From assembly GCA_021647785.1 (NCBI GenBank), contig JAKIUC010000009.1, positions 1 through 64,000 on the forward strand: a stretch of DNA of 64,000 nt. Direction: 5' to 3'. Position 1 is the stretch's first letter. Each line of letters begins with the position of its first letter. Of the stretch, positions 18,722-59,951 are shown in pieces. The position numbers and the translations under genes were made by a program. The notes beneath the pieces were generated by a model. The model was not told the origin of the DNA. It saw only the letters and a list, made by a program, of their open reading frames with translations, and searched no databases. The DNA comes from Melioribacteraceae bacterium. GTDB lineage: Bacteria > Bacteroidota > Ignavibacteria > Ignavibacteriales > Melioribacteraceae.

Positions 18722-18892
18722 TATACCGACAATGAATTGTCTGTAAGACTCTCCCGAAGTGATTTCTACGGAGCTTCGGAGGAATTCCAAAAGCGAATAT
18801 TGTACTTCAGCAAGTTCAGTAACCATCGGTATATAACAACCAAATTGTCCCGCTAAGCGGGACCAATTTGGGTTGTGCATATTTTAAAATAT
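18722..18892 (+). repeat. family 1 modular palindromic repeat, longest copy
   Basis: The element opens with TATACCGACAATGAA and has a middle with smaller hairpins (TGTCTGTAAGACTCTC; CTACGGAGCTTCGG). It continues with GGAATTCCAAAAGCGAATATTG, an arm ATCGGTATATAACAACCAAATT, the core hairpin GTCCCGC-TAA-GCGGGAC (18847-18863), and CCAATTTGGGTTGT. It ends in ATATTTTAAAATAT. Compared with 56920-57030 it has an extra insert of about 60 bases. It fills most of the gap before lon. Confidence 0.75.
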
Positions 18893-43313: not shown

Positions 43314-45074
43314 ATGTTTTTACCAACTACAAAAAAAGAACTTAAGGAACTTGGCTGGAATAAGCTGGACATCATTTTTGTAAGTGGCGATACTTACGTT
43401 GACAGCCCATATATGGGAATTGCTATACTTGGGAATATCCTTGCAGACAAAGGCTTTCGTGTTGGTATTATTGCTCAACCGGATATTAACTCGGCTTATG
43501 ATATTTCTCGACTTGGAGAACCAGAATTATTTTGGGGTGTTTCAGGTGGCAGTGTCGATTCGATGGTATCAAATTATACAGCTTCCAAAAAGAGACGAAG
43601 GCAGGACGATTACACGCCGGGTGGTGAAAACAACAAACGACCAGATAGAGCAGTGCTGGTTTATACAAATCTGATTCGCAGAAATTTTAAAAACACAAAG
43701 CCAATAATTATTGGCGGAATTGAAGCAAGTCTAAGACGTGTTGCCCACTACGATTATTGGTCGAACAAACTCCGCCGTTCAATACTTTTTGATTCCAAAG
43801 CTGATTACCTCATTTATGGGATGGGTGAAAAAACAACAATTGAAATTGCACAAAAATTACAAAAGGGTAAAAGTATTATTGGAGTTCGAGGACTATCGTA
43901 TCTCTCGAACGAAAATAAATATGAATATCTTCAACTCCCCTCATTTGAAGAGACAGTTAAAGACAAATATAAGTTCATAGAAATGTTCGATACTTTTTAT
44001 TTAAACAACGATCCCCTTTCTGCCAAAGGGTTGGTACAAAAACATGGTAAAAGATTTTTAATTCAAAACCCGCCGCAGTATAACCCAACAACAGAGGAGA
44101 TGGATTATTATCACGACTTAAAATACGAACGTGAAGTTCATCCCTATTATAAAAAATGGGGAGAGGTTAGAGCATTAGAGACAATCCGCTTCTCTATTAA
44201 TACTCATCGTGGCTGCTATGGCGAGTGTAACTTTTGTGCTATTGCTGTCCATCAGGGGCAAACCATTAGCGGGCGTAGTGAGAAATCAATTCTGAATGAA
44301 GCAAAAGAATATTCTAAAATGAAAAACTTTAAAGGAAATATTTCGGATGTTGGCGGACCTACTGCAAATATGTATGGATTTGAATGCACAAAAAAAATAA
44401 ATTTAGGGAGTTGCGATGACAAGCGATGTGTTGCCCCAACCACCTGTAAAACATTGAGACCCACACACAAACCACAAATAGATTTATTAAAAAAATTACG
44501 TAGGTTAGATGGAATAAAGAAAGTTTTTGTAGCATCGGGCATTAGGTATGATATGGTTCTGGATGATAAACAGTATGGTGATGAGTATCTAAAAGAGATA
44601 GTACAACACCACACTTCAGGGCAAATGAAAATTGCACCAGAGCATTCAGAAGATAAAGTTTTGGATTTAATGGGAAAGCCTGGAAAGCGATATTTAACAG
44701 AGTTCCGAGATAAGTTTTATCAATATTCAAAAGAGGTTGGAAAGAATCAGTTTCTCACTTACTATATGATTGCTGCCCATCCTGGCTGTACAGAAAGTGA
44801 TATGCACAAGTTAAAAGAATTCACTTCAGAAAAACTCTCCATTTCACCAGAGCAAGTTCAGGTGTTCACTCCAACACCCTCCACATATTCTACATTAATG
44901 TACTATACTGAAATAGACCCATTTACAGGGAAAAAACTCTTTGTTGAAAAAGATATAAATAAAACAACTTTGCAAAAAAACATTGCGGTTGCTAAAAGAG
45001 AAAATCCTAAAGCAGGAAAGGGAAGAAGTAATAGTAGAAGTAATTATCATTCTAAAACTAAAAGACGTAGATAA
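43314..45074 (+). CDS. YgiQ family radical SAM protein
   Basis: A radical SAM protein with an N-terminal B12-binding-like domain (DIIFVSGDTYVDSPYMGIAI), the cluster motif CYGECNFCAIAVHQG near residue 302, and the family phrase GNISDVGGPTANMYG near residue 345. The C-terminus is basic. The function of YgiQ is not established. Its last codons CGT AGA TAA are the start of the left arm of a palindromic element, mirrored at the end of tkt. Confidence 0.92.
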   Translation: MFLPTTKKELKELGWNKLDIIFVSGDTYVDSPYMGIAILGNILADKGFRVGIIAQPDINSAYDISRLGEPELFWGVSGGSVDSMVSNYTASKKRRRQDDYTPGGENNKRPDRAVLVYTNLIRRNFKNTKPIIIGGIEASLRRVAHYDYWSNKLRRSILFDSKADYLIYGMGEKTTIEIAQKLQKGKSIIGVRGLSYLSNENKYEYLQLPSFEETVKDKYKFIEMFDTFYLNNDPLSAKGLVQKHGKRFLIQNPPQYNPTTEEMDYYHDLKYEREVHPYYKKWGEVRALETIRFSINTHRGCYGECNFCAIAVHQGQTISGRSEKSILNEAKEYSKMKNFKGNISDVGGPTANMYGFECTKKINLGSCDDKRCVAPTTCKTLRPTHKPQIDLLKKLRRLDGIKKVFVASGIRYDMVLDDKQYGDEYLKEIVQHHTSGQMKIAPEHSEDKVLDLMGKPGKRYLTEFRDKFYQYSKEVGKNQFLTYYMIAAHPGCTESDMHKLKEFTSEKLSISPEQVQVFTPTPSTYSTLMYYTEIDPFTGKKLFVEKDINKTTLQKNIAVAKRENPKAGKGRSNSRSNYHSKTKRRR

Positions 45075-45143
45075 TATTACCATAATATTGTACCTATGGT
45101 ACTATAAGCTCCTGAGGATGGATATTATGGTAATATTATCTAC
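45067..45143. repeat. family 2 palindromic element with perfect 22-bp arms
   Basis: The left arm GTAGATAATATTACCATAAT plus AT (45067-45088) is the exact reverse complement of the right arm at 45122-45143. The centre holds two smaller hairpins, GTACCTATGGTAC and AAGCTCCTGAGG. Related copies lie at 55577-55633 and 59791-59840. The arms contain the stop codons of both flanking convergent genes, so it could serve as a bidirectional terminator, although it has no U-run. Confidence 0.85.
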
Positions 45144-48725: not shown

Positions 48726-51521
48726 CTACTTAAGTAGCAGCATTTTCTTTGTTGCTGTGTAGTTGCCTGATTGTATTTTGTAAACATACATTCCTGTTGT
48801 TAAGCCAGATGCATCAAATGATACTTCATAAGTACCTGCTGATTTTACATCATTAACTAATTCTACAACTTCTTGTCCTAGTATGTTAAATACTTTCAAG
48901 GTTACTAATCCACTCTCTGGTATTGAGAAATTGATTACTGTACTTGGGTTAAATGGGTTTGGATAGTTTTGTCCTAACTCGTAAGCTGTTGGTATTTCAC
49001 TTCCTATTTGTTCTACTCCATTTACTATATCTTTTGTCTCCTGTGAACCAAAAACATCTACTGCATCACCATACCAAAAACTCTTAAATAATGTTACATG
49101 ATGATTAGACTGTACTCCACCTTCATTATCATTTGCTCCACCATTAGAAGCTAAACCCCAGTTTGCACCATATTTATACTCAATATCAAATGGTGAGTAT
49201 ATTGGAAATGTAACTTCCATTGTCCAGAAATTATCTCCTGCTGTTGCATCGCCACTAGTACCATCATCTACCATGAAAATTACTATATCAGAATCAGAAT
49301 CTGGCCATCCAACATCAGGCCATTTTAATGGAAGATTTGCTCCTGCAATTACAACATTATCTACTGATGAAAATTCTACATTATTTACATCAACTGCATT
49401 ATTCATATCAACCACAAATCTGATTACTGATTCTTGGTTTACTACGGTTTCCAGTGTAACATTGTTGTAACCACGTAATGGAACCATTGTAAATCCATTT
49501 GTAATATCTGCTGCTGTAACAGAATGTTCGTAGTTATTAGAAGCTGTTGGGGGATTATTTTCCCAATTTGTTCCACTTGCTGTTGTGTATGCAAATTTAT
49601 AATATACTACATCTCCATCAAAGGCTTCATATTGTGCTGTTCCTTCGTAGATGTTGGGATTTATTGCGGATGGAAGTAATTGTAAAGCATCGTCTTCCCA
49701 AGAAGTAGCAGTACCACGAGCAGTTAAAGTATCTAAAGCCGGATTAAAACGTGATGCTGCTATCTCTAATTCCATATTACATTGGAAAGAAATGGCTATT
49801 ATTTTTGTTTCTCTACCTTCATCATCATCAAAATATGCAAAGTATGTATCTGCACTTCCTGGTACTGTATATTTTCTATTTGGATCTGATTCCCATCCGT
49901 CACCATTTTTTACAAACTTAAATTCATGTTCATCACCTTCTGTTAAGTCTAAGGTTACTGAATAGACTAAATCTCCATCTCCATCAGACATTGATGTTGC
50001 ACCTGCATCCCAGCCATTCATTGTACCGGCTATTGTTACTGTACCTGTTGCTGCATCAAAGTTGCCTTTGTTTACTTGTACACTCATGTCAACTTCAAAG
50101 GTGATTGGTACTGTTACACTTGGTTCTTGCATCTGCCCTAACCAGAAATCATAACCCCCTTTACTGGTAAGGGAAAACGGGTTAAATTCTCCTGTACTGC
50201 TTTTAAAGTTACCGCCAAAGTAAACAGTTCCATCAGCATCAATTACACTTGCATTAAGGTAATCATCGCTGCTACCACCATAATTTTTTGCCCAAATAAT
50301 ATTATCCTCAAACATACGCATAACAAAAACATCTCGCTTACCATAGTTGTATAGTGTATCATTTGGTAAAATTAAATCGCTTTTAGTAATACCTGAAAGG
50401 AAGTAATCCCCTTCAGTTCCCTGTATAACATTAATTGCTTTAGCTTCGTCATCAGCATCCCCACCATATGAAAAACCATGTAGATATTCTCCATCTTCTG
50501 AGAATAGTAAGGTATAAATATCGTAACCTCCTACAGATTCAAAAAGCACATTAGAAGGTCCAGCAAAAAGAGAATCTCTAAAAGAACCTGCTATTAAAAT
50601 CACACCTGCTTCTACACCACCTCCAAAAACATAATCAATTGCATATCCTTTATCGTCACCAGGACCATTTGCAGAGATTGCCCATTCGTAAGAACCTGAA
50701 GAACTTACTTTTGCAAGAAATAGTTCATATCCATTATCATTATTGGGGAGAATTGTTGTACCAAAAGTTGCTTCAACATTATCGTAATTACCGTTAAAAT
50801 AGATATTGTCATTTTCATCAATTACTAATCCACCAGGATAATCGTTATCAGCACCTCCACCGGTTACACCCCATAGTGGGTTACCATCAGAATCCATTTT
50901 AATAACGAAAACATCTCTCTCCCCTTTTGAAGTAGTTAATTCTAAACCTTCAAATTTAAATGGAAGAGTTAAAGAATCATTAACATCATAATAACCAAGT
51001 AGAATATAATTACCTTGGTTATCCACTTGAATGTCGAATGGTTTTTCTTGATTTTCAGTATATCCATGTTTCATCCAAATGTAGTTACCATCAGAATCAA
51101 ATTTCAGAACAAAAATATCAAAGTTACCAGCACTAAATAGTGTGTCTGTTCCAAAATTTATTGTTGAAAAAAAGACTCCGGCAACAATTACATTTCCGTT
51201 ACTATCAACAGTAACAGCATTTCCTTCATCAGTAAGAGTACCACCTATCGATTTTGCCCATTGAATATTATTATCTCTGTCATATTTTACAACAAAAGCA
51301 TCATAGTTATCTCTGGGTGTAATAGAGACTCCTTGCCCAAAATCGATAATACCTTTGTACCTTCCTGTAATATATTTATTGCCTGCTTCATCAACAAAAA
51401 TATCGTAACCATAATCAGCACTTGAAGACCCATCGTGAACAATCATATCAAACGGAAATGCTTGCCCAAAAGAGAGTGAAACAAACAATAGCATTGATAA
51501 GAGAATTAATATTTTTTTCAT
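48726..51521 (-). CDS. T9SS cargo protein: SBBP-like propeller, three carbohydrate-binding-like domains, sorting domain
   Basis: Signal peptide at residues 1-19. Residues 25-465 hold repeats of about 50-60 residues like VDSNGNVIVAGVFFSTINFG, which look like SBBP beta-propeller blades. Three beta-sandwich domains follow at roughly 470-575, 578-690 and 700-815, each with a phrase such as VTIAGTMNGW or ...FKFVKNGDGW, similar to starch-binding/glycogen-binding type modules. The C-terminus (from about residue 850) is a type IX sorting domain: NYPNPFNPSTVINFSIPE, LKVFNILGQEVVELV and a final KKMLLLK. Expected to be secreted and surface-attached. Confidence 0.82.
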   Translation of the reverse strand: MKKILILLSMLLFVSLSFGQAFPFDMIVHDGSSSADYGYDIFVDEAGNKYITGRYKGIIDFGQGVSITPRDNYDAFVVKYDRDNNIQWAKSIGGTLTDEGNAVTVDSNGNVIVAGVFFSTINFGTDTLFSAGNFDIFVLKFDSDGNYIWMKHGYTENQEKPFDIQVDNQGNYILLGYYDVNDSLTLPFKFEGLELTTSKGERDVFVIKMDSDGNPLWGVTGGGADNDYPGGLVIDENDNIYFNGNYDNVEATFGTTILPNNDNGYELFLAKVSSSGSYEWAISANGPGDDKGYAIDYVFGGGVEAGVILIAGSFRDSLFAGPSNVLFESVGGYDIYTLLFSEDGEYLHGFSYGGDADDEAKAINVIQGTEGDYFLSGITKSDLILPNDTLYNYGKRDVFVMRMFEDNIIWAKNYGGSSDDYLNASVIDADGTVYFGGNFKSSTGEFNPFSLTSKGGYDFWLGQMQEPSVTVPITFEVDMSVQVNKGNFDAATGTVTIAGTMNGWDAGATSMSDGDGDLVYSVTLDLTEGDEHEFKFVKNGDGWESDPNRKYTVPGSADTYFAYFDDDEGRETKIIAISFQCNMELEIAASRFNPALDTLTARGTATSWEDDALQLLPSAINPNIYEGTAQYEAFDGDVVYYKFAYTTASGTNWENNPPTASNNYEHSVTAADITNGFTMVPLRGYNNVTLETVVNQESVIRFVVDMNNAVDVNNVEFSSVDNVVIAGANLPLKWPDVGWPDSDSDIVIFMVDDGTSGDATAGDNFWTMEVTFPIYSPFDIEYKYGANWGLASNGGANDNEGGVQSNHHVTLFKSFWYGDAVDVFGSQETKDIVNGVEQIGSEIPTAYELGQNYPNPFNPSTVINFSIPESGLVTLKVFNILGQEVVELVNDVKSAGTYEVSFDASGLTTGMYVYKIQSGNYTATKKMLLLK

Positions 51522-51575: not shown

Positions 51576-53822
51576 TTATTTTATAAGTAACATTTTCCTA
51601 CTTTGCAAAAGTCCAGCACTTGTAAGAGTATATATATAAATTCCTGAAGCCAGTTTTGATGCATTAAATACAACTTCGTAAGCACCAGGTTTTTGTATTT
51701 CATTAACAAGAGTTGCAACCACCTGACCAAGCAAATTATAAACTTTTAATGTTACATTTTGCGGTCCCGCAGTAGCGGGACGGCGTGTTTCTACTGGTAT
51801 TGAATATTTAATTATTGTGCTAGGGTTAAAAGGGTTTGGATAGTTTGCTTCAAGTGAAAATTTGCTTACTAAATTATCGTCAACTAATTTAACATCAACT
51901 GTTGGAACAGCTCTATATATTTCACTACCTCCAGAAGCTACCCATATATATCCGTTATTATCAACCATAATACCATAATTTGTAGTAGCCGTAACAATAT
52001 CCAAATCAATAATATCTTCCCAAGTATATCCGCCATCATACGTAACAAAAAGAAACTTACTGCCAGTTAAATACCAGGTTAATTCATCAACAATTGCAAT
52101 ACTTTCAATTTTTTTTGATAAACCAGCAACTTCGATATATTCCCAAGTCTTACCGCCATCATTAGATAATATAAGTTTTTCACCTGCTGCAAGACCAAAG
52201 CTATTATTTAGAAATTCAATTTCGTAGAAATCATGCTCTCCCGGTGGCATATTGCTTGGAGTAATTTTTGTCCAACTTATTCCACCATCAGTTGTATATG
52301 CCAAAGCGGATTCATCTCCGGCAACAACGCCATTGTTTTCATCAAAGAAATGGAGGGAGTTTAATTCGTTTATTAAATTTGGGTCTGCAATTAGTGAACT
52401 CCAGTTTATCCCGCCATCTGTAGTTTTGTAAAACGCACTTACGTCAGGATTTCCTTTCCCTACAACAAAACCAACATCTTCGTTTATAAATAGTACTCCG
52501 TAATTATTTATAGTAGTTGCCATTGTGTCTTTCATAATCTGTGTCCAAGTTTCTCCACCATCACTGGTCTTTGATACAGTCCTATTTTTTTGGGCAGCGT
52601 ATCCAATATTTTCATTAAGAAAAAAAAGGTCTTCCACAGTTGGAGAGACATTTTTATCTGAAATGTATGTGCTTTCCCAGGACTCTCCATTATCAATTGA
52701 TTTAAGAAATAGACCGTTAAACCCTGCTGCTATTATTGTATTATCACCAATTTTATCAATTTCATAAAGAGTGGAGGAAGGGATTTCAGTAATTAATTTC
52801 CAACTCTCCCCAGCATCTTCCGATATCGCTATTCCACCATTAGAACCAACAATACATATTTTGTCATTTATCAAACTTATTGATTTAGCTTGGAAACCCA
52901 TTGGAAAGTTGATCTCATTCCAATTTAATCCACCATCTATTGTTTTATATGCAACCCCACCCTTATAACTTGAACCACCAACTGCAATACCATAGAGTTC
53001 GTCATTAAATGCAATACTATACAAATTAACATATAATCTGTTATCTTCTACTTGAGTCTCATACGTCCAGTTTGCACCACCATCTGTTGAACGTAATGTA
53101 TAAGTAGGCTGCAAACCGGACGAACTTGCCCCCCAACCAGTAGCAAACGCAACTGTTTCGTTAATCATTACAACTGCATTCAAATCAGTACGAGTATAAC
53201 CATAAGGAATTCCCGTTGGAGTTGGGGCTTTAGTCCAAGCTAATCCATCTGTTGTGTAATAAATTGCAAAATTTCCTGACCTTCCGCCAACACAAACTCC
53301 ACGTTCAGCAGAATAAAAACTCATAGCTTTTAAATTAGTTGCAACTTCTGTTGCTTGAATAGTCCAAGTGGTTCCTCCATCAGTAGTGTGTGAAATTTCA
53401 CCTCCAGTAGAAGTTCCGGATAGTACCCATCCAGTGTTTGCATCAGTAAAATATAGTGAATAAATTTTTCCGCCAACTGACTCGAACATTACTTCAATCC
53501 AAGTTGCACCACCATCTATACTTTTTAGAATTAGATCGTTAGCTCCCCCAGCATAGCCAATATTTTCATCAACAAAAAAAATGCTATACATTGATGCAAT
53601 AACTGGTAAAGTATCTATTGGCTCTTCCCAAGTATAACCACCATCAGTTGTTCTTAAAATTGTACCAGACTGACCGGCAATCCATCCAAGATTTTCATTT
53701 ATGAAGAAGATATCACTTAATGGATTATATGTTGCCGAAGTAACTTTTTTCCATCTGCTTGCTCCATAAAGTGAAATTGAAAAAAGCAGTATCACTATAA
53801 TTAATATTTTTTTAATCATCAA
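51576..53822 (-). CDS. T9SS cargo protein with BNR/Ycf48-like repeats
   Basis: Signal peptide at residues 1-20. The body is made of repeated blades of about 45 residues with TTDGGYTWE / STDGGANWT and FFINENLGWIAGQ phrases, a BNR or Ycf48-like beta-propeller. The sorting domain from about residue 670 reads NYPNPFNPSTIIKYSIP, LKVYNLLGQVVATLV and ends RKMLLIK. Between the SIP and the VTLKVYN strands there is an extra segment ETRRPATAGPQ, encoded by a palindrome with the same arms as the core hairpin of the family 1 repeats. The gene is 54 bases from the previous T9SS protein gene. Confidence 0.82.
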   Translation of the reverse strand: MMIKKILIIVILLFSISLYGASRWKKVTSATYNPLSDIFFINENLGWIAGQSGTILRTTDGGYTWEEPIDTLPVIASMYSIFFVDENIGYAGGANDLILKSIDGGATWIEVMFESVGGKIYSLYFTDANTGWVLSGTSTGGEISHTTDGGTTWTIQATEVATNLKAMSFYSAERGVCVGGRSGNFAIYYTTDGLAWTKAPTPTGIPYGYTRTDLNAVVMINETVAFATGWGASSSGLQPTYTLRSTDGGANWTYETQVEDNRLYVNLYSIAFNDELYGIAVGGSSYKGGVAYKTIDGGLNWNEINFPMGFQAKSISLINDKICIVGSNGGIAISEDAGESWKLITEIPSSTLYEIDKIGDNTIIAAGFNGLFLKSIDNGESWESTYISDKNVSPTVEDLFFLNENIGYAAQKNRTVSKTSDGGETWTQIMKDTMATTINNYGVLFINEDVGFVVGKGNPDVSAFYKTTDGGINWSSLIADPNLINELNSLHFFDENNGVVAGDESALAYTTDGGISWTKITPSNMPPGEHDFYEIEFLNNSFGLAAGEKLILSNDGGKTWEYIEVAGLSKKIESIAIVDELTWYLTGSKFLFVTYDGGYTWEDIIDLDIVTATTNYGIMVDNNGYIWVASGGSEIYRAVPTVDVKLVDDNLVSKFSLEANYPNPFNPSTIIKYSIPVETRRPATAGPQNVTLKVYNLLGQVVATLVNEIQKPGAYEVVFNASKLASGIYIYTLTSAGLLQSRKMLLIK
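51764..51781 (-). repeat. REP-like palindrome inside a coding sequence
   Basis: GTCCCGC-AGTA-GCGGGAC lies in frame in the sorting domain of the T9SS protein. The two arms are identical to the core hairpin GTCCCGC-TAA-GCGGGAC of the intergenic element at 18847-18863. The segment adds about ten residues that the neighbouring sorting domain lacks. Confidence 0.75.
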
Positions 53823-55529: not shown

Positions 55530-55701
55530 ATAATGTCGTGCCGATGGCACTGTTGTTATCTATTTTATTATTGATATTACCATAATATCGCTCCTCTGGA
55601 GCTTTTAGTACCGTAGGTACGATATTATGGTAAAAAAAACATATAAGCAAAAATAAATGCCATTCCGCAAAAAGATACGGAACAGGTAGGCACGACATTA
55701 T
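55530..55701. repeat. 172-bp element with 13-bp terminal inverted repeats and a nested family 2 palindrome
   Basis: ATAATGTCGTGCC at 55530-55542 is the exact reverse complement of GGCACGACATTAT at 55689-55701. Inside are a family 2 copy (TTACCATAATATCG at 55577-55590 with CGATATTATGGTAA at 55620-55633, centre GCTCCTCTGGAGC and GTACCGTAGGTAC) and a GTGCCGATGGCAC hairpin next to the left end. No coding capacity; it looks like a MITE or stacked palindromes. Confidence 0.7.
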
Positions 55702-56919: not shown

Positions 56920-57030
56920 TATACCGACAATGAATAGGTTTTCGGAATTCCAAAAGCGAATATTGTCGGTATATAACAACCAAATTGTCCTGCTAAGCGG
57001 GACCAATTTGGGTTGTATATATTTTAAAAT
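56920..57030 (+). repeat. family 1 modular palindromic repeat, compact copy
   Basis: It runs TATACCGACAATGAA, TTTTCGGAATTCC, AAAAGCGAATATTGTCGG, TATATAACAACCAAATTGTC, core CCTGCTAAGCGGGA, then CCAATTTGGGTTGT and TATATATTTTAAAAT. Outer and inner palindromes are both complete. Its end contains the TAA stop (57024-57026) of the TonB receptor gene on the other strand. Confidence 0.8.
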
Positions 57031-59702
57031 AATTTATCAAATATCATACTAAATTCAATTCCATAAAACAATTCCGGATTTCTACTATCCTCTTTATATT
57101 TTTTATTCACAGGGTCGTAGTAATTCCAAATTGCCGGATCATCCATAAAATTATTAACGTAAAATGAAACCTCAGCCCCATCAAAAAGTGATTTTGAAAC
57201 ATTGAAACTGAATAACCACTTAGGTGGTCTTGAAATCACGGACTCTTGATAATCGCGATCAGTTTTTCCTTTGTCGGTTAACAAATTGTAATCAACTGGT
57301 ATTAAGGAAAATTTTTGTTTCCTATCTCCATACAACTGCTCTCCTCGTAAGGTAACCCAAAGACCCAATTCTTTATTTATATATTTCACATAATAATTTA
57401 TCTGCAATCTATCTTGCCAATTACCTGATGAAGGATAGTAAAACCCAATCAATGTATCGGTAGTAACATTAGGGACTTGGTAGTTTGCAATTTGCCCAAT
57501 GCTTTCATCGTTAGTAAACTTATAGGAATATCCTCTACTTGGAGTTTTATTATAACTATACGAGCCTGTAATTTTGAAGTTCATATTAAGTGGTTTAATC
57601 TGTGCTGTTTTAAAAATAAATTCTATACCCTTACTTCTATTGGCTCCAATGTTATAGTATAACGAATATTCATCCACATAATAGACAACTTTTTTTCTGT
57701 TATCATCAATTTCAGTAAATACTTGTTTTTTTTGAATCTTGGGCTGGTTATTTCTTTCACGATAGTAAGCAGTTAAAGAGATTCCTATTTTATCTAAAAA
57801 TTTGTGGTCGTACGAAATCTCTAATTGTGTTGTTTTATAACCCTGCAAATCTGGAACTTTCTTATCAAATCTAAAATATTCTGTATCACCGGTTATTGGG
57901 TTTCTCCATTTCAACACACTTTCCGGAGGATAAATACGGCTCATAGCTGGCGATTTTGAACTACTTCCAAAATTAATTCTTAACTGATTATTCGGAGAAA
58001 AATATGTTAACAAACTTATTCTCGGATTAAAAAAACTTCCTTGATATGACTCGACTAAATCGCCATCACCCCAAAGCCCGCTTACATTAAATGAATTTGG
58101 TCTATACATTTCATATCGAAACCCAAACATAAGCGTAAAGTCAAAAAGGAAATGTCCAGTCAGTTTATCCTCAGCATACAGACTAAAGATTAGTTGCCCT
58201 GGAATAGAATCAAAAGTGTATGAACGCTTCTTCGATTCAACTCCGTAGTAATTATAAACAGTATCTATAATTAAACCTTCACCACTATTAGCATCATACT
58301 GAACCTCTGTACCTGCAAGGAAGTTATGAATAAAATCTCCAGTATAAAAAATATTTTGCCATTCAAACCTTCCGCCAGCAAGCCATTGAATTCCTTTAGT
58401 TTCAGCTTTTCCAATATATGAAGATACCGTATCTCCCTCTGGAGTAACAAGATACTCAGTTCTTAATCTACTTCTCATTGAGTTTATTTTCTTCATACTT
58501 ACATAGGCATTGTACTTGAATTTAGAGATTTGATTAAAAGGTTTCACAGTTCCCCAAGTATTAAGCCCAACTGTATAGCCTCTATTAAAATCTTTGGTTT
58601 TTAATAGATCGCCTTGAGGTTCTTTTTCATCATTAATAAACTGACCTTTTAATTTGTAGCGTGCAGTCCAATTATTATAATGTTCAGCAGCATAAATTAG
58701 TTGTGCTGTCATTCTAGTATATTCATCACCTACTAATCGTAAATCTCTTTCACTACGAGCAGCATTGGCATTATAATTAAGTGAATTATTACCGAGACTA
58801 AAACCACCTCCAAAATTAACCTCGCTTATTTTCGGATTGTTCTTAATTTTTATTCTGTGCGGAGCTACTCCCATTTTAGTTTTAAGTTCAATAATTCCGT
58901 TAGAAAAATCGCCATATCTCACGGAAGGCATTCCGAGAATAACTGAGACAGATTCGAGATTATCGGCTGGTATTTCTCTCAAATCAACGCTGCCTCCCAT
59001 ACTGTTCATACCAAACTTTGATCCGGATAGAGCTTCAAATTGCAAATTAGAATTATTTGAAATAGGCTCACCATCAATAATTATTTTTGTACCAAATGCA
59101 TCTATCTGTTCTTCGGCAGTAGTACCTGCTGATGCTCTAATAGCTATTTGGCTCGTTTTATTTATACCAGGGTTTGTTTTTTGAATCCCAGGAACTAAAT
59201 CAAGAACATCGCCCAAATTTGTTGCTTGGTAATGTTCAATTTCTCCGGAACTAATATCAGTTGTAGTAGCAATATCTCTGGGTAGTAAATCATCTTTAGC
59301 TGATACTATTATTCCGCCAACATTAAAGGATTCTGGTTTTAGATTAAAATTTAATTGAATTAATCTCTCTTTAACGATTTCAATTTCAACAACTTTTTTA
59401 GTGTAACCAACGTAAGATGCTTGTACTTTATATTTCCCAACTGGAATATTTTCTAATCTGAATTTTCCCTCAAAATTAGCAGTTGTGCCAAAGGTAGTAC
59501 CAATTAAAATTATGTTTGCTGAAAATAACGACTTCCCTTTTTCATCTAAAACTACACCCTTTATTCCACCACTACTCTCTTCTGTGAAATCTAAATTTTG
59601 TTTTGAATTATTTATCCATGTTTGCGAAAGGCTTACTTGCTGAAATAAAAATAAAAAGAAAAAAAGGGATATGAAAAATTTTTCTAACAGAACTCCCACC
59701 AA
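57024..59702 (-). CDS. TonB-dependent receptor with carboxypeptidase-regulatory-like N-terminal domain
   Basis: After a signal peptide (to about residue 27) comes a CarboxypepD_reg-like domain (residues 45-130: IKGVVLDEKGKSLFSANI, VQASYVGYTKKVVEI), a plug domain (about 135-255, with DVLDLVPGIQKTNPG and the SVRYGDFSNGIIELKT end), and a 22-strand-type barrel. Length 892 residues. The start is unusual: no ATG fits, so TTG at 59702 or GTG at 59699 must be used; GGGAG lies right there. The transported substrate is unknown. It sits above the DUF4876 lipoprotein and the barrel gene. Confidence 0.88.
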   Translation of the reverse strand: MVGVLLEKFFISLFFFLFLFQQVSLSQTWINNSKQNLDFTEESSGGIKGVVLDEKGKSLFSANIILIGTTFGTTANFEGKFRLENIPVGKYKVQASYVGYTKKVVEIEIVKERLIQLNFNLKPESFNVGGIIVSAKDDLLPRDIATTTDISSGEIEHYQATNLGDVLDLVPGIQKTNPGINKTSQIAIRASAGTTAEEQIDAFGTKIIIDGEPISNNSNLQFEALSGSKFGMNSMGGSVDLREIPADNLESVSVILGMPSVRYGDFSNGIIELKTKMGVAPHRIKIKNNPKISEVNFGGGFSLGNNSLNYNANAARSERDLRLVGDEYTRMTAQLIYAAEHYNNWTARYKLKGQFINDEKEPQGDLLKTKDFNRGYTVGLNTWGTVKPFNQISKFKYNAYVSMKKINSMRSRLRTEYLVTPEGDTVSSYIGKAETKGIQWLAGGRFEWQNIFYTGDFIHNFLAGTEVQYDANSGEGLIIDTVYNYYGVESKKRSYTFDSIPGQLIFSLYAEDKLTGHFLFDFTLMFGFRYEMYRPNSFNVSGLWGDGDLVESYQGSFFNPRISLLTYFSPNNQLRINFGSSSKSPAMSRIYPPESVLKWRNPITGDTEYFRFDKKVPDLQGYKTTQLEISYDHKFLDKIGISLTAYYRERNNQPKIQKKQVFTEIDDNRKKVVYYVDEYSLYYNIGANRSKGIEFIFKTAQIKPLNMNFKITGSYSYNKTPSRGYSYKFTNDESIGQIANYQVPNVTTDTLIGFYYPSSGNWQDRLQINYYVKYINKELGLWVTLRGEQLYGDRKQKFSLIPVDYNLLTDKGKTDRDYQESVISRPPKWLFSFNVSKSLFDGAEVSFYVNNFMDDPAIWNYYDPVNKKYKEDSRNPELFYGIEFSMIFDKLF

Positions 59703-59790
59703 CGTTTATTATTGATTTACCAAATTACAATAACTAAAAATTAAACTCAATTCTATTATTGGGGAAATAATTGTACCCTTTTACTTATGA

Positions 59791-59840
59791 ATATTACCAT
59801 AATATCGCTGCTCTGGAGCTTTTAGTACCGTAGGTACAAT
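59791..59840. repeat. family 2 palindromic element, right arm decayed
   Basis: ATATTACCATAATATCGC, TGCTCTGGAGC and GTACCGTAGGTAC match the copy at 55577 closely, but the right arm has become caatatatatata. It lies between galE and the TonB receptor gene. Confidence 0.7.
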
Positions 59841-59951
59841 ATATATATAGTATTGAATCCGCCGCCCGAGGATGTCGGAATGGTTGAATTGCTGTAATAG
59901 CCTATCTGGCAACTGCCTGAAACAATTTAACAATTATTCGTAGTAAAGTGT

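Follow-up and report, generated by a model that had tools for sequence, protein, structure and literature searches.

A REP-like palindromic insert between the predicted beta1 and beta2 strands of a T9SS sorting domain in a Melioribacteraceae genome

Background

Within the 64,000 nt of Melioribacteraceae DNA analysed here (the window; contig JAKIUC010000009.1 of assembly GCA_021647785.1), a GC-rich palindrome is translated as part of an exported protein. Its forward-strand letters at 51764-51781, GTCCCGCAGTAGCGGGAC (GTCCCGC-AGTA-GCGGGAC), lie in frame in a minus-strand ORF at 51576-53822; on the coding strand, sequence inspection, an arm search and folding all give the hairpin GTCCCGC-TACT-GCGGGAC (51764..51781, minus strand). 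The question raised by this locus is to what kind of element the palindrome belongs, and how it came to lie within an export signal. A sequence-only reading had described it as an in-frame palindromic element occupying a loop where a repeated export domain would tolerate insertion, had likened it to the palindromic elements of Rickettsia, and had derived it from an intergenic repeat of the same window that carries identical arms. Different REPs are known from about the same site of recB in Xanthomonas campestris and X. oryzae, and some Rickettsia palindromic elements (RPEs) carry a CGTC tag, according to the relevant passages of one paper (PMC3733652).

Results

The host gene (51576..53822, minus strand), defined from the ORF list and from NCBIfam and Pfam scans, encodes an exported beta-propeller-like (PSII_BNR / Sortilin-Vps10-like) protein with a C-terminal T9SS sorting domain. 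This type A domain (CTD), delimited by model matches and alignments, extends from NYPNPFNP to the last codon (51579..51845, minus strand) and passes both cut-offs at the C terminus, scoring 28.7 against 23 bits for TIGR04183 and 30.3 against 27 bits for PF18962. It was modelled with AlphaFold2 from an input of the target CTD, the neighbouring CTD and those of three relatives (mean pLDDT 79.1). Strands are predicted at residues 21-28 and 41-48, and the mean pLDDT falls to 58 over residues 31-40, against 82 over 21-30 and 90-92 over 41-60. Since this low-confidence stretch separates the two strands, the insert is, in the model, the beta1-beta2 loop (loop 1; residues 29-40, 51762..51797, minus strand), the peptide of which, VETRRPATAGPQN, is flanked by a strand ending in KYSIP and by the strand VTLKVYN. 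A Foldseek comparison of the model with the PDB gave no match at E <= 0.001, the T9SS CTD entries 8glk and 8qb1 being ranked 4 and 6; a profile search matched the sorting domain of 8glj chain D at E 5.9e-5. The domain model that the sequence-only reading had called for agrees with it as to where the insert lies, as do the frame and the CTD matches. Its observation that the neighbouring T9SS protein has no insert is likewise borne out by alignment with that protein's CTD (48729..48968, minus strand; ORF list and NCBIfam scan), which serves as an internal comparison, and extends to the orthologs of this T9SS gene of the target in three genomes of its genus (G042, G018 and G054, about 59-62% identity), all of which have a 4-residue loop, no insert and no palindrome.

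The arm pattern of the target hairpin had 0 matches in 100 dinucleotide shuffles, and folding of its coding strand gives -17.9 kcal/mol (z -3.9). Comparison with the ortholog loops and with a counterpart elsewhere in the genome (C61:58713) delimits the inserted sequence as a 30-nt unit, here termed family A' (51765..51794, minus strand), that consists of a GTAG foot, AAACACGCC and the hairpin, and encodes VETRRPATAG. Read in coding order, the insert DNA is GTAGAAACACGCC, GTCCCGCTACTGCGGGAC, CGCAAAAT; the palindrome noticed earlier is the second block, and the 13-nt repeated head that precedes the hairpin on the coding strand (51782-51794), by which the element is identified, had been overlooked. 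The GTAG at 51791..51794 (minus strand), of which GTA is a Val codon, resembles the foot of the GTAG-tagged REPs portrayed in parts of two papers (PMC3733652, PMC6006769). The 30-nt unit has the hairpin as its right half, and its head makes up the left half of a double-foot REP of the GTAG type. A GTAG tetranucleotide stands at one end of the 8 CTD copies described below, the target among them, and of the single intergenic copy. The stem-loop of a REP, at the foot or at most 1-2 nt from it, is so placed in family A copies; in the target the stem begins 9 nt past the GTAG, and the target is therefore a derivative rather than a canonical REP. The complementary C[TC]AC foot opposite is absent from the target and present in L159, L193, L196 and two elements of a relative (G023).

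Across the 4.25 Mb genome, the head pattern GTAGARACNCGCC occurs at 9 places, 8 in loop 1 of a CTD and one intergenic, the latter being the palindrome GTAGAGACACGCCGCAGCGTGTCTCTAC with CTAC at its end. In 6 of the 8 CTD copies (family A) the head continues as GTGGCGTGT or variants of it, and the peptide is ETRRGVSP; in the other two, the target and C61:58713, it continues as the CCCGC-TACT-GCGGG hairpin of family A'. Apart from the target itself, its hairpin was found only in the C61:58713 unit (L153), which lies between the Pro and the SVQT of a further element, B, in a B-carrying CTD, and has an outer A-T stem pair (arms ATCCCGC/GCGGGAT) where the target has G-C. Element B is CTCCCCTCTTGGGAGGGG, and its search pattern CTCCCCTCTNNNGAGGGG occurs at 13 places, all of them in CTD loop 1, one being cut by a contig end to leave 12 complete carriers. 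As the A and B search patterns fix 11 of 13 and 15 of 18 bases, the likeness within each element is partly preset; in the CTD list compiled without these patterns, degraded B copies were absent and a single GTAG insert differed. Three CTDs have A or A' followed by B, the CTD of L127 has an insert headed GTAGAGACGTTG, and in another CTD a different repeat has contributed an insert of 23 residues. Both A' stems fold stably (z -3.9 and -4.4), and the A copy of L056, at z +0.5, is no better than shuffles. In the C61 CTD (L153, 1393-1755), NPF and NPST are separated by an additional GEAIPMG segment with TCCC-TAT-GGGA in its DNA, possibly a further palindromic insert. Two CTDs are found at the ends of contigs C1 (L176) and C10 (L071), one of them being that cut inside B; the repeats may thus break the assembly, and an undercount is possible.

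For a wider count, 150 of 201 candidate CTDs were HMM-scored and 11 further sites came from patterns; 143 of 146 complete domains were aligned, the 3 without a recognised core being dropped, and 2 additional CTDs (contig end or stop) were left out. Family A or B is present in loop 1 of 17 of the 143, counted after a first rule for loop-1 length, which misread B carriers, had been replaced; this is the alignment count that the earlier reading had proposed. Hairpins were defined as perfect, with an arm of 6 and at least 5 G+C, a rule adopted after a first look that allowed AT-rich stems showed a high background. By this rule the 143 CTDs hold 18 GC-rich hairpins in loop 1, 5 in loop 2 and none in the rest of the domain; codon shuffling predicts on average 0.52 (maximum 3) for loop 1 and 0.14 (maximum 2) for loop 2. 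The whole 64-kb window has three, including the pair that had been compared at the outset. Loop 2 of several CTDs, among them L085, L110, L123, L126 and L157, contains a third palindrome, TCCGCC-NNN-GGCGGA (SATGGL and variants), directly before LTSGIYFY, twice in tandem in L126. An ARGIHSETGSA-like repeated insert was also seen near the last strand, in loop 3 of L091 (two copies), L117 and L124, and in loop 2 of L056.

The syntenic ortholog in L273 (Ignavibacteriales; apparently G057), which is 61.6% identical over 748 residues and adjoins the ortholog of the next gene, carries a plain A REP at the target's insertion codon. The A head was found at 19 places in the 78 other genomes of the family, two of these being both strands of one palindrome: three in CTD loop 1 (G054, G057 and, one codon further on and in another genus, G046), one in a Y1 transposase gene and 15 elsewhere, mostly intergenic. 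Element B has 6 places in relatives, three of them intergenic and three in CTD loop 1, of which G042 has two and G030, a member of another genus, has one. Among stretches of G023, G002 and G042 picked irrespective of CTDs, with 4 of the 47 CTDs from other genomes dropped for lack of a core, 3 of 17 CTDs in G023 have three different loop-1 GTAG palindromes, all on one contig and with related GTAG palindromes elsewhere; 1 of 13 in G002 has an insert from another repeat, and 0 of 13 in G042 have one. A search of GTDB contigs returned 0 records of the composite element and 11 of the Ile-Pro codons followed by the GTAG head, two in CTDs (apparently the G054 and G057 places) and nine outside CTDs. 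Of the GTAG inserts in CTD loops, 15 were read (nine in this genome, one each in G054, G057 and G046, and three in G023), and in every one GTA is a codon. One alternative phase would put TAG in frame, but the other stays open, hence the constant phase demands an explanation, which may be common ancestry, aimed insertion or selection acting on the peptide.

Whether the copies entered separately or were copied between domains was judged from their flanks. Synonymous codon difference is 0.454 between A flanks and 0.383 between B flanks, against a short-loop background of 0.521, while inside the elements third positions differ by 0.067 in A and 0 in B. Codon by codon, and right to the edge of the insert, pairs of A flanks are as diverged as pairs of an A and a non-A carrier, with values of 0.75 and 0.70 for the last codon before it; the codons beside B are more alike than background (0.30 against 0.54 at -1, 0.17 against 0.48 at 0). 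When clustered at a synonymous difference of 0.25, all 8 A carriers stand alone, and the 12 complete B carriers form 8 clusters, the largest having five members on different proteins at a difference of <=0.25. Clearly related hosts are confined to one A pair (51% over 137 residues) and one B pair (30% over 294); the remaining carrier proteins show a few weak matches and are otherwise unrelated over the stretch compared. By these figures the flanks of A carriers are near synonymous saturation and the elements are almost identical, which argues that the elements repeatedly entered domains that had already diverged. For the majority of placements the pattern resembles discrete insertion into old domains, and the five-member B cluster was probably spread by domain recombination. 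The recombination between sorting domains suggested by the sequence-only reading thus fits five of the 12 B carriers, but for the A carriers and the other B carriers, with flanks diverged up to the insert, repeated separate insertion is the better fit.

A candidate mover is found in relatives. At L203 (G073:C40), a REPtron, a RAYT gene adjoins an array of alternating GTAGAGACACGCC, GTAGAGACGTTGC and GTAGAGACTTGCC A-type double-foot palindromes, and the RAYT itself holds a sister REP in frame; G036 has an A REP in frame within its RAYT gene. Both arrangements match the account of TnpA-REP / RAYT subclass 2.4, with REPs beside or in frame inside RAYT genes, in the portion of the work of Quentin and co-workers that treats this subclass (PMC6006769). 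No RAYT of subclass 2.4 was seen among the three of six Y1 matches read in the present genome, which have IS200-like D-H-[IV]-H motifs, and no A or B element was found near Y1 transposases at 32 loci (the best 30 from 79 genomes and two more of this genome).

The intergenic repeat from which the hairpin had been derived, family 1 (18826..18891, strand unassigned), was compared through ten copies, at 18847 and 56966 in the window and eight elsewhere. The 7-nt arms of the target are indeed identical to those at 18847-18863, and recur in 8 of the 10, but the loop differs and the AAATT/AATTTG-like context of all ten is lacking in the target, whose flanks share nothing with them. The sibling A' hairpin at C61 has ATCCCGC/GCGGGAT arms, hence the identity of the target's arms with family 1 is probably a coincidence. 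Family 1, with its GTCCCGC-type hairpin and conserved AAATT/AATTT flanks, occurs also at 56966-57031 and, inverted, near 2803-2886, with further copies in eight contig stretches outside the window. Another intergenic repeat, 63 nt long, partly palindromic (ATATTACCATAATAT ...) and unrelated to the insert, has three copies, at 45063-45125, 55563-55625 and 59780-59842.

Discussion

What was observed is an insert and its frame, insert-free orthologs, a repeated head, several palindrome families in the same loop across genera, flanks much more diverged than the elements they border, and, in two relatives, RAYT genes that adjoin or contain such REPs. The explanation that we consider probable is that the 30-nt insert is a derived GTAG-footed REP, inserted in frame into the CTD's beta1-beta2 loop and kept there. 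A GTAG-footed REP is a palindromic, non-autonomous element of a type that RAYT/TnpA-REP HUH transposases mobilise, and in this lineage a RAYT may have done the moving. A copy inserting in frame into the loop would meet a site that is exposed and free in length, and short inserts in an open phase would therefore be retained there, presumably through neutrality, while insertions in most other coding sequence would be lost. Family A' may have arisen from a longer double-foot REP after loss of the right arm. Against this explanation stand the near absence of intergenic copies in this genome, for which free transposition alone is insufficient, and the constant Val phase of GTA, a possible sign of shared descent. 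The distance of the target's stem from the GTAG, the lack of a subclass 2.4 RAYT among the Y1 matches read and of A or B elements near the 32 Y1 loci, the bases preset by the search patterns and the later choice of the G+C hairpin rule also count against it.

Spread mainly by recombination or gene conversion among the approximately 150 CTDs, after one or a few original insertions, is possible but seems unlikely as the principal route. It would account well for the restriction of the A places (8 of 9) and the B places (13 of 13) to CTDs, with almost none intergenic, for the five B carriers clustering on different proteins, and for the similar codons beside B; yet the A carriers have no common flank, the complete B carriers are split among many clusters, and conversion tracts would have to stop at the element edges time after time. 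Selection on the palindrome at the level of DNA or RNA, for instance as an mRNA hairpin near the 3' part of genes for exported proteins, is improbable: the two-sided change that preserves the C61 stem, the stability of both A' stems and the nearly invariant third positions of the elements would suit it, but the A copy of L056 folds like shuffles, most CTDs have no hairpin, and different families occupy the loop.

Descent of the hairpin from family 1, very improbable in our estimation, draws on the identical arms, which are all that matches across the copies read, and was rejected given the unshared flank and loop, the other arms of the sibling A', and the 13 nt that A' and family A have in common and that family 1 lacks. 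That the loop is merely long and diverged, with a palindrome arising by chance, can scarcely be credited; palindrome-free loop-1 extensions do exist in some CTDs, but this idea is contradicted by the numbers of A and B places, by the excess of loop-1 hairpins over expectation and by near-identical repeats on unrelated proteins. The sequence-only reading had recognised a real insertion and the right phenomenon, and had named the wrong repeat.

The preferred reading, a derived REP retained in the loop, can be set beside known systems. Like the GTAG double-foot REPs described in two papers (PMC6006769, PMC3733652), the elements described here have a GTAG foot and a palindrome that is short and GC-rich, CTAC closes the complete copies of family A, and relatives have intergenic copies and RAYT genes with REPs beside or within them in frame. 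Unlike those REPs, the copies in this genome lie nearly all in one loop of one domain, and the target has no right arm and another hairpin; nor was a subclass 2.4 RAYT found among the Y1 matches read in this genome. The likeness to RPEs proposed earlier is right in kind, both being in-frame palindromic repeats in protein genes, and extends to the mode of insertion as sketched in part of one source (PMC3733652); the sequences are different, and RPEs are spread over many unrelated target genes and sites instead of being confined to a single loop of a single domain. The recB REPs, as outlined there (PMC3733652), resemble the CTD inserts in that different REPs share roughly one position within a gene, but they concern one orthologous gene rather than an export domain common to unrelated proteins. 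No report of recurrent REP colonisation of one export-domain loop was found in the open-access full texts searched; within that literature, in-frame REPs are already known, and their concentration in an export tag is the new part.

Conclusions

It is conceivable, though doubtful, that CTD loops are a preferred harbour for REPs in this family, insertion being steered to, or almost only retained in, the beta1-beta2 and beta4-beta5 loops, and that the resulting diversity of loops alters cargo recognition, cleavage or anchoring; were this the case, a transposase would act as a diversifier of an export signal. In-frame REPs have previously been reported scattered across many genes, whereas here proteins destined for secretion bear additional loops made of short stretches of selfish DNA. 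Many entries by several unrelated palindromes into one loop of a widespread export domain, in unrelated proteins and in several genera, amount to a scan of the T9SS signal by natural insertions, in which the positions of the inserts reveal where that signal tolerates foreign peptide. This provides a clean system for asking whether REP insertion is aimed, or merely filtered by selection.
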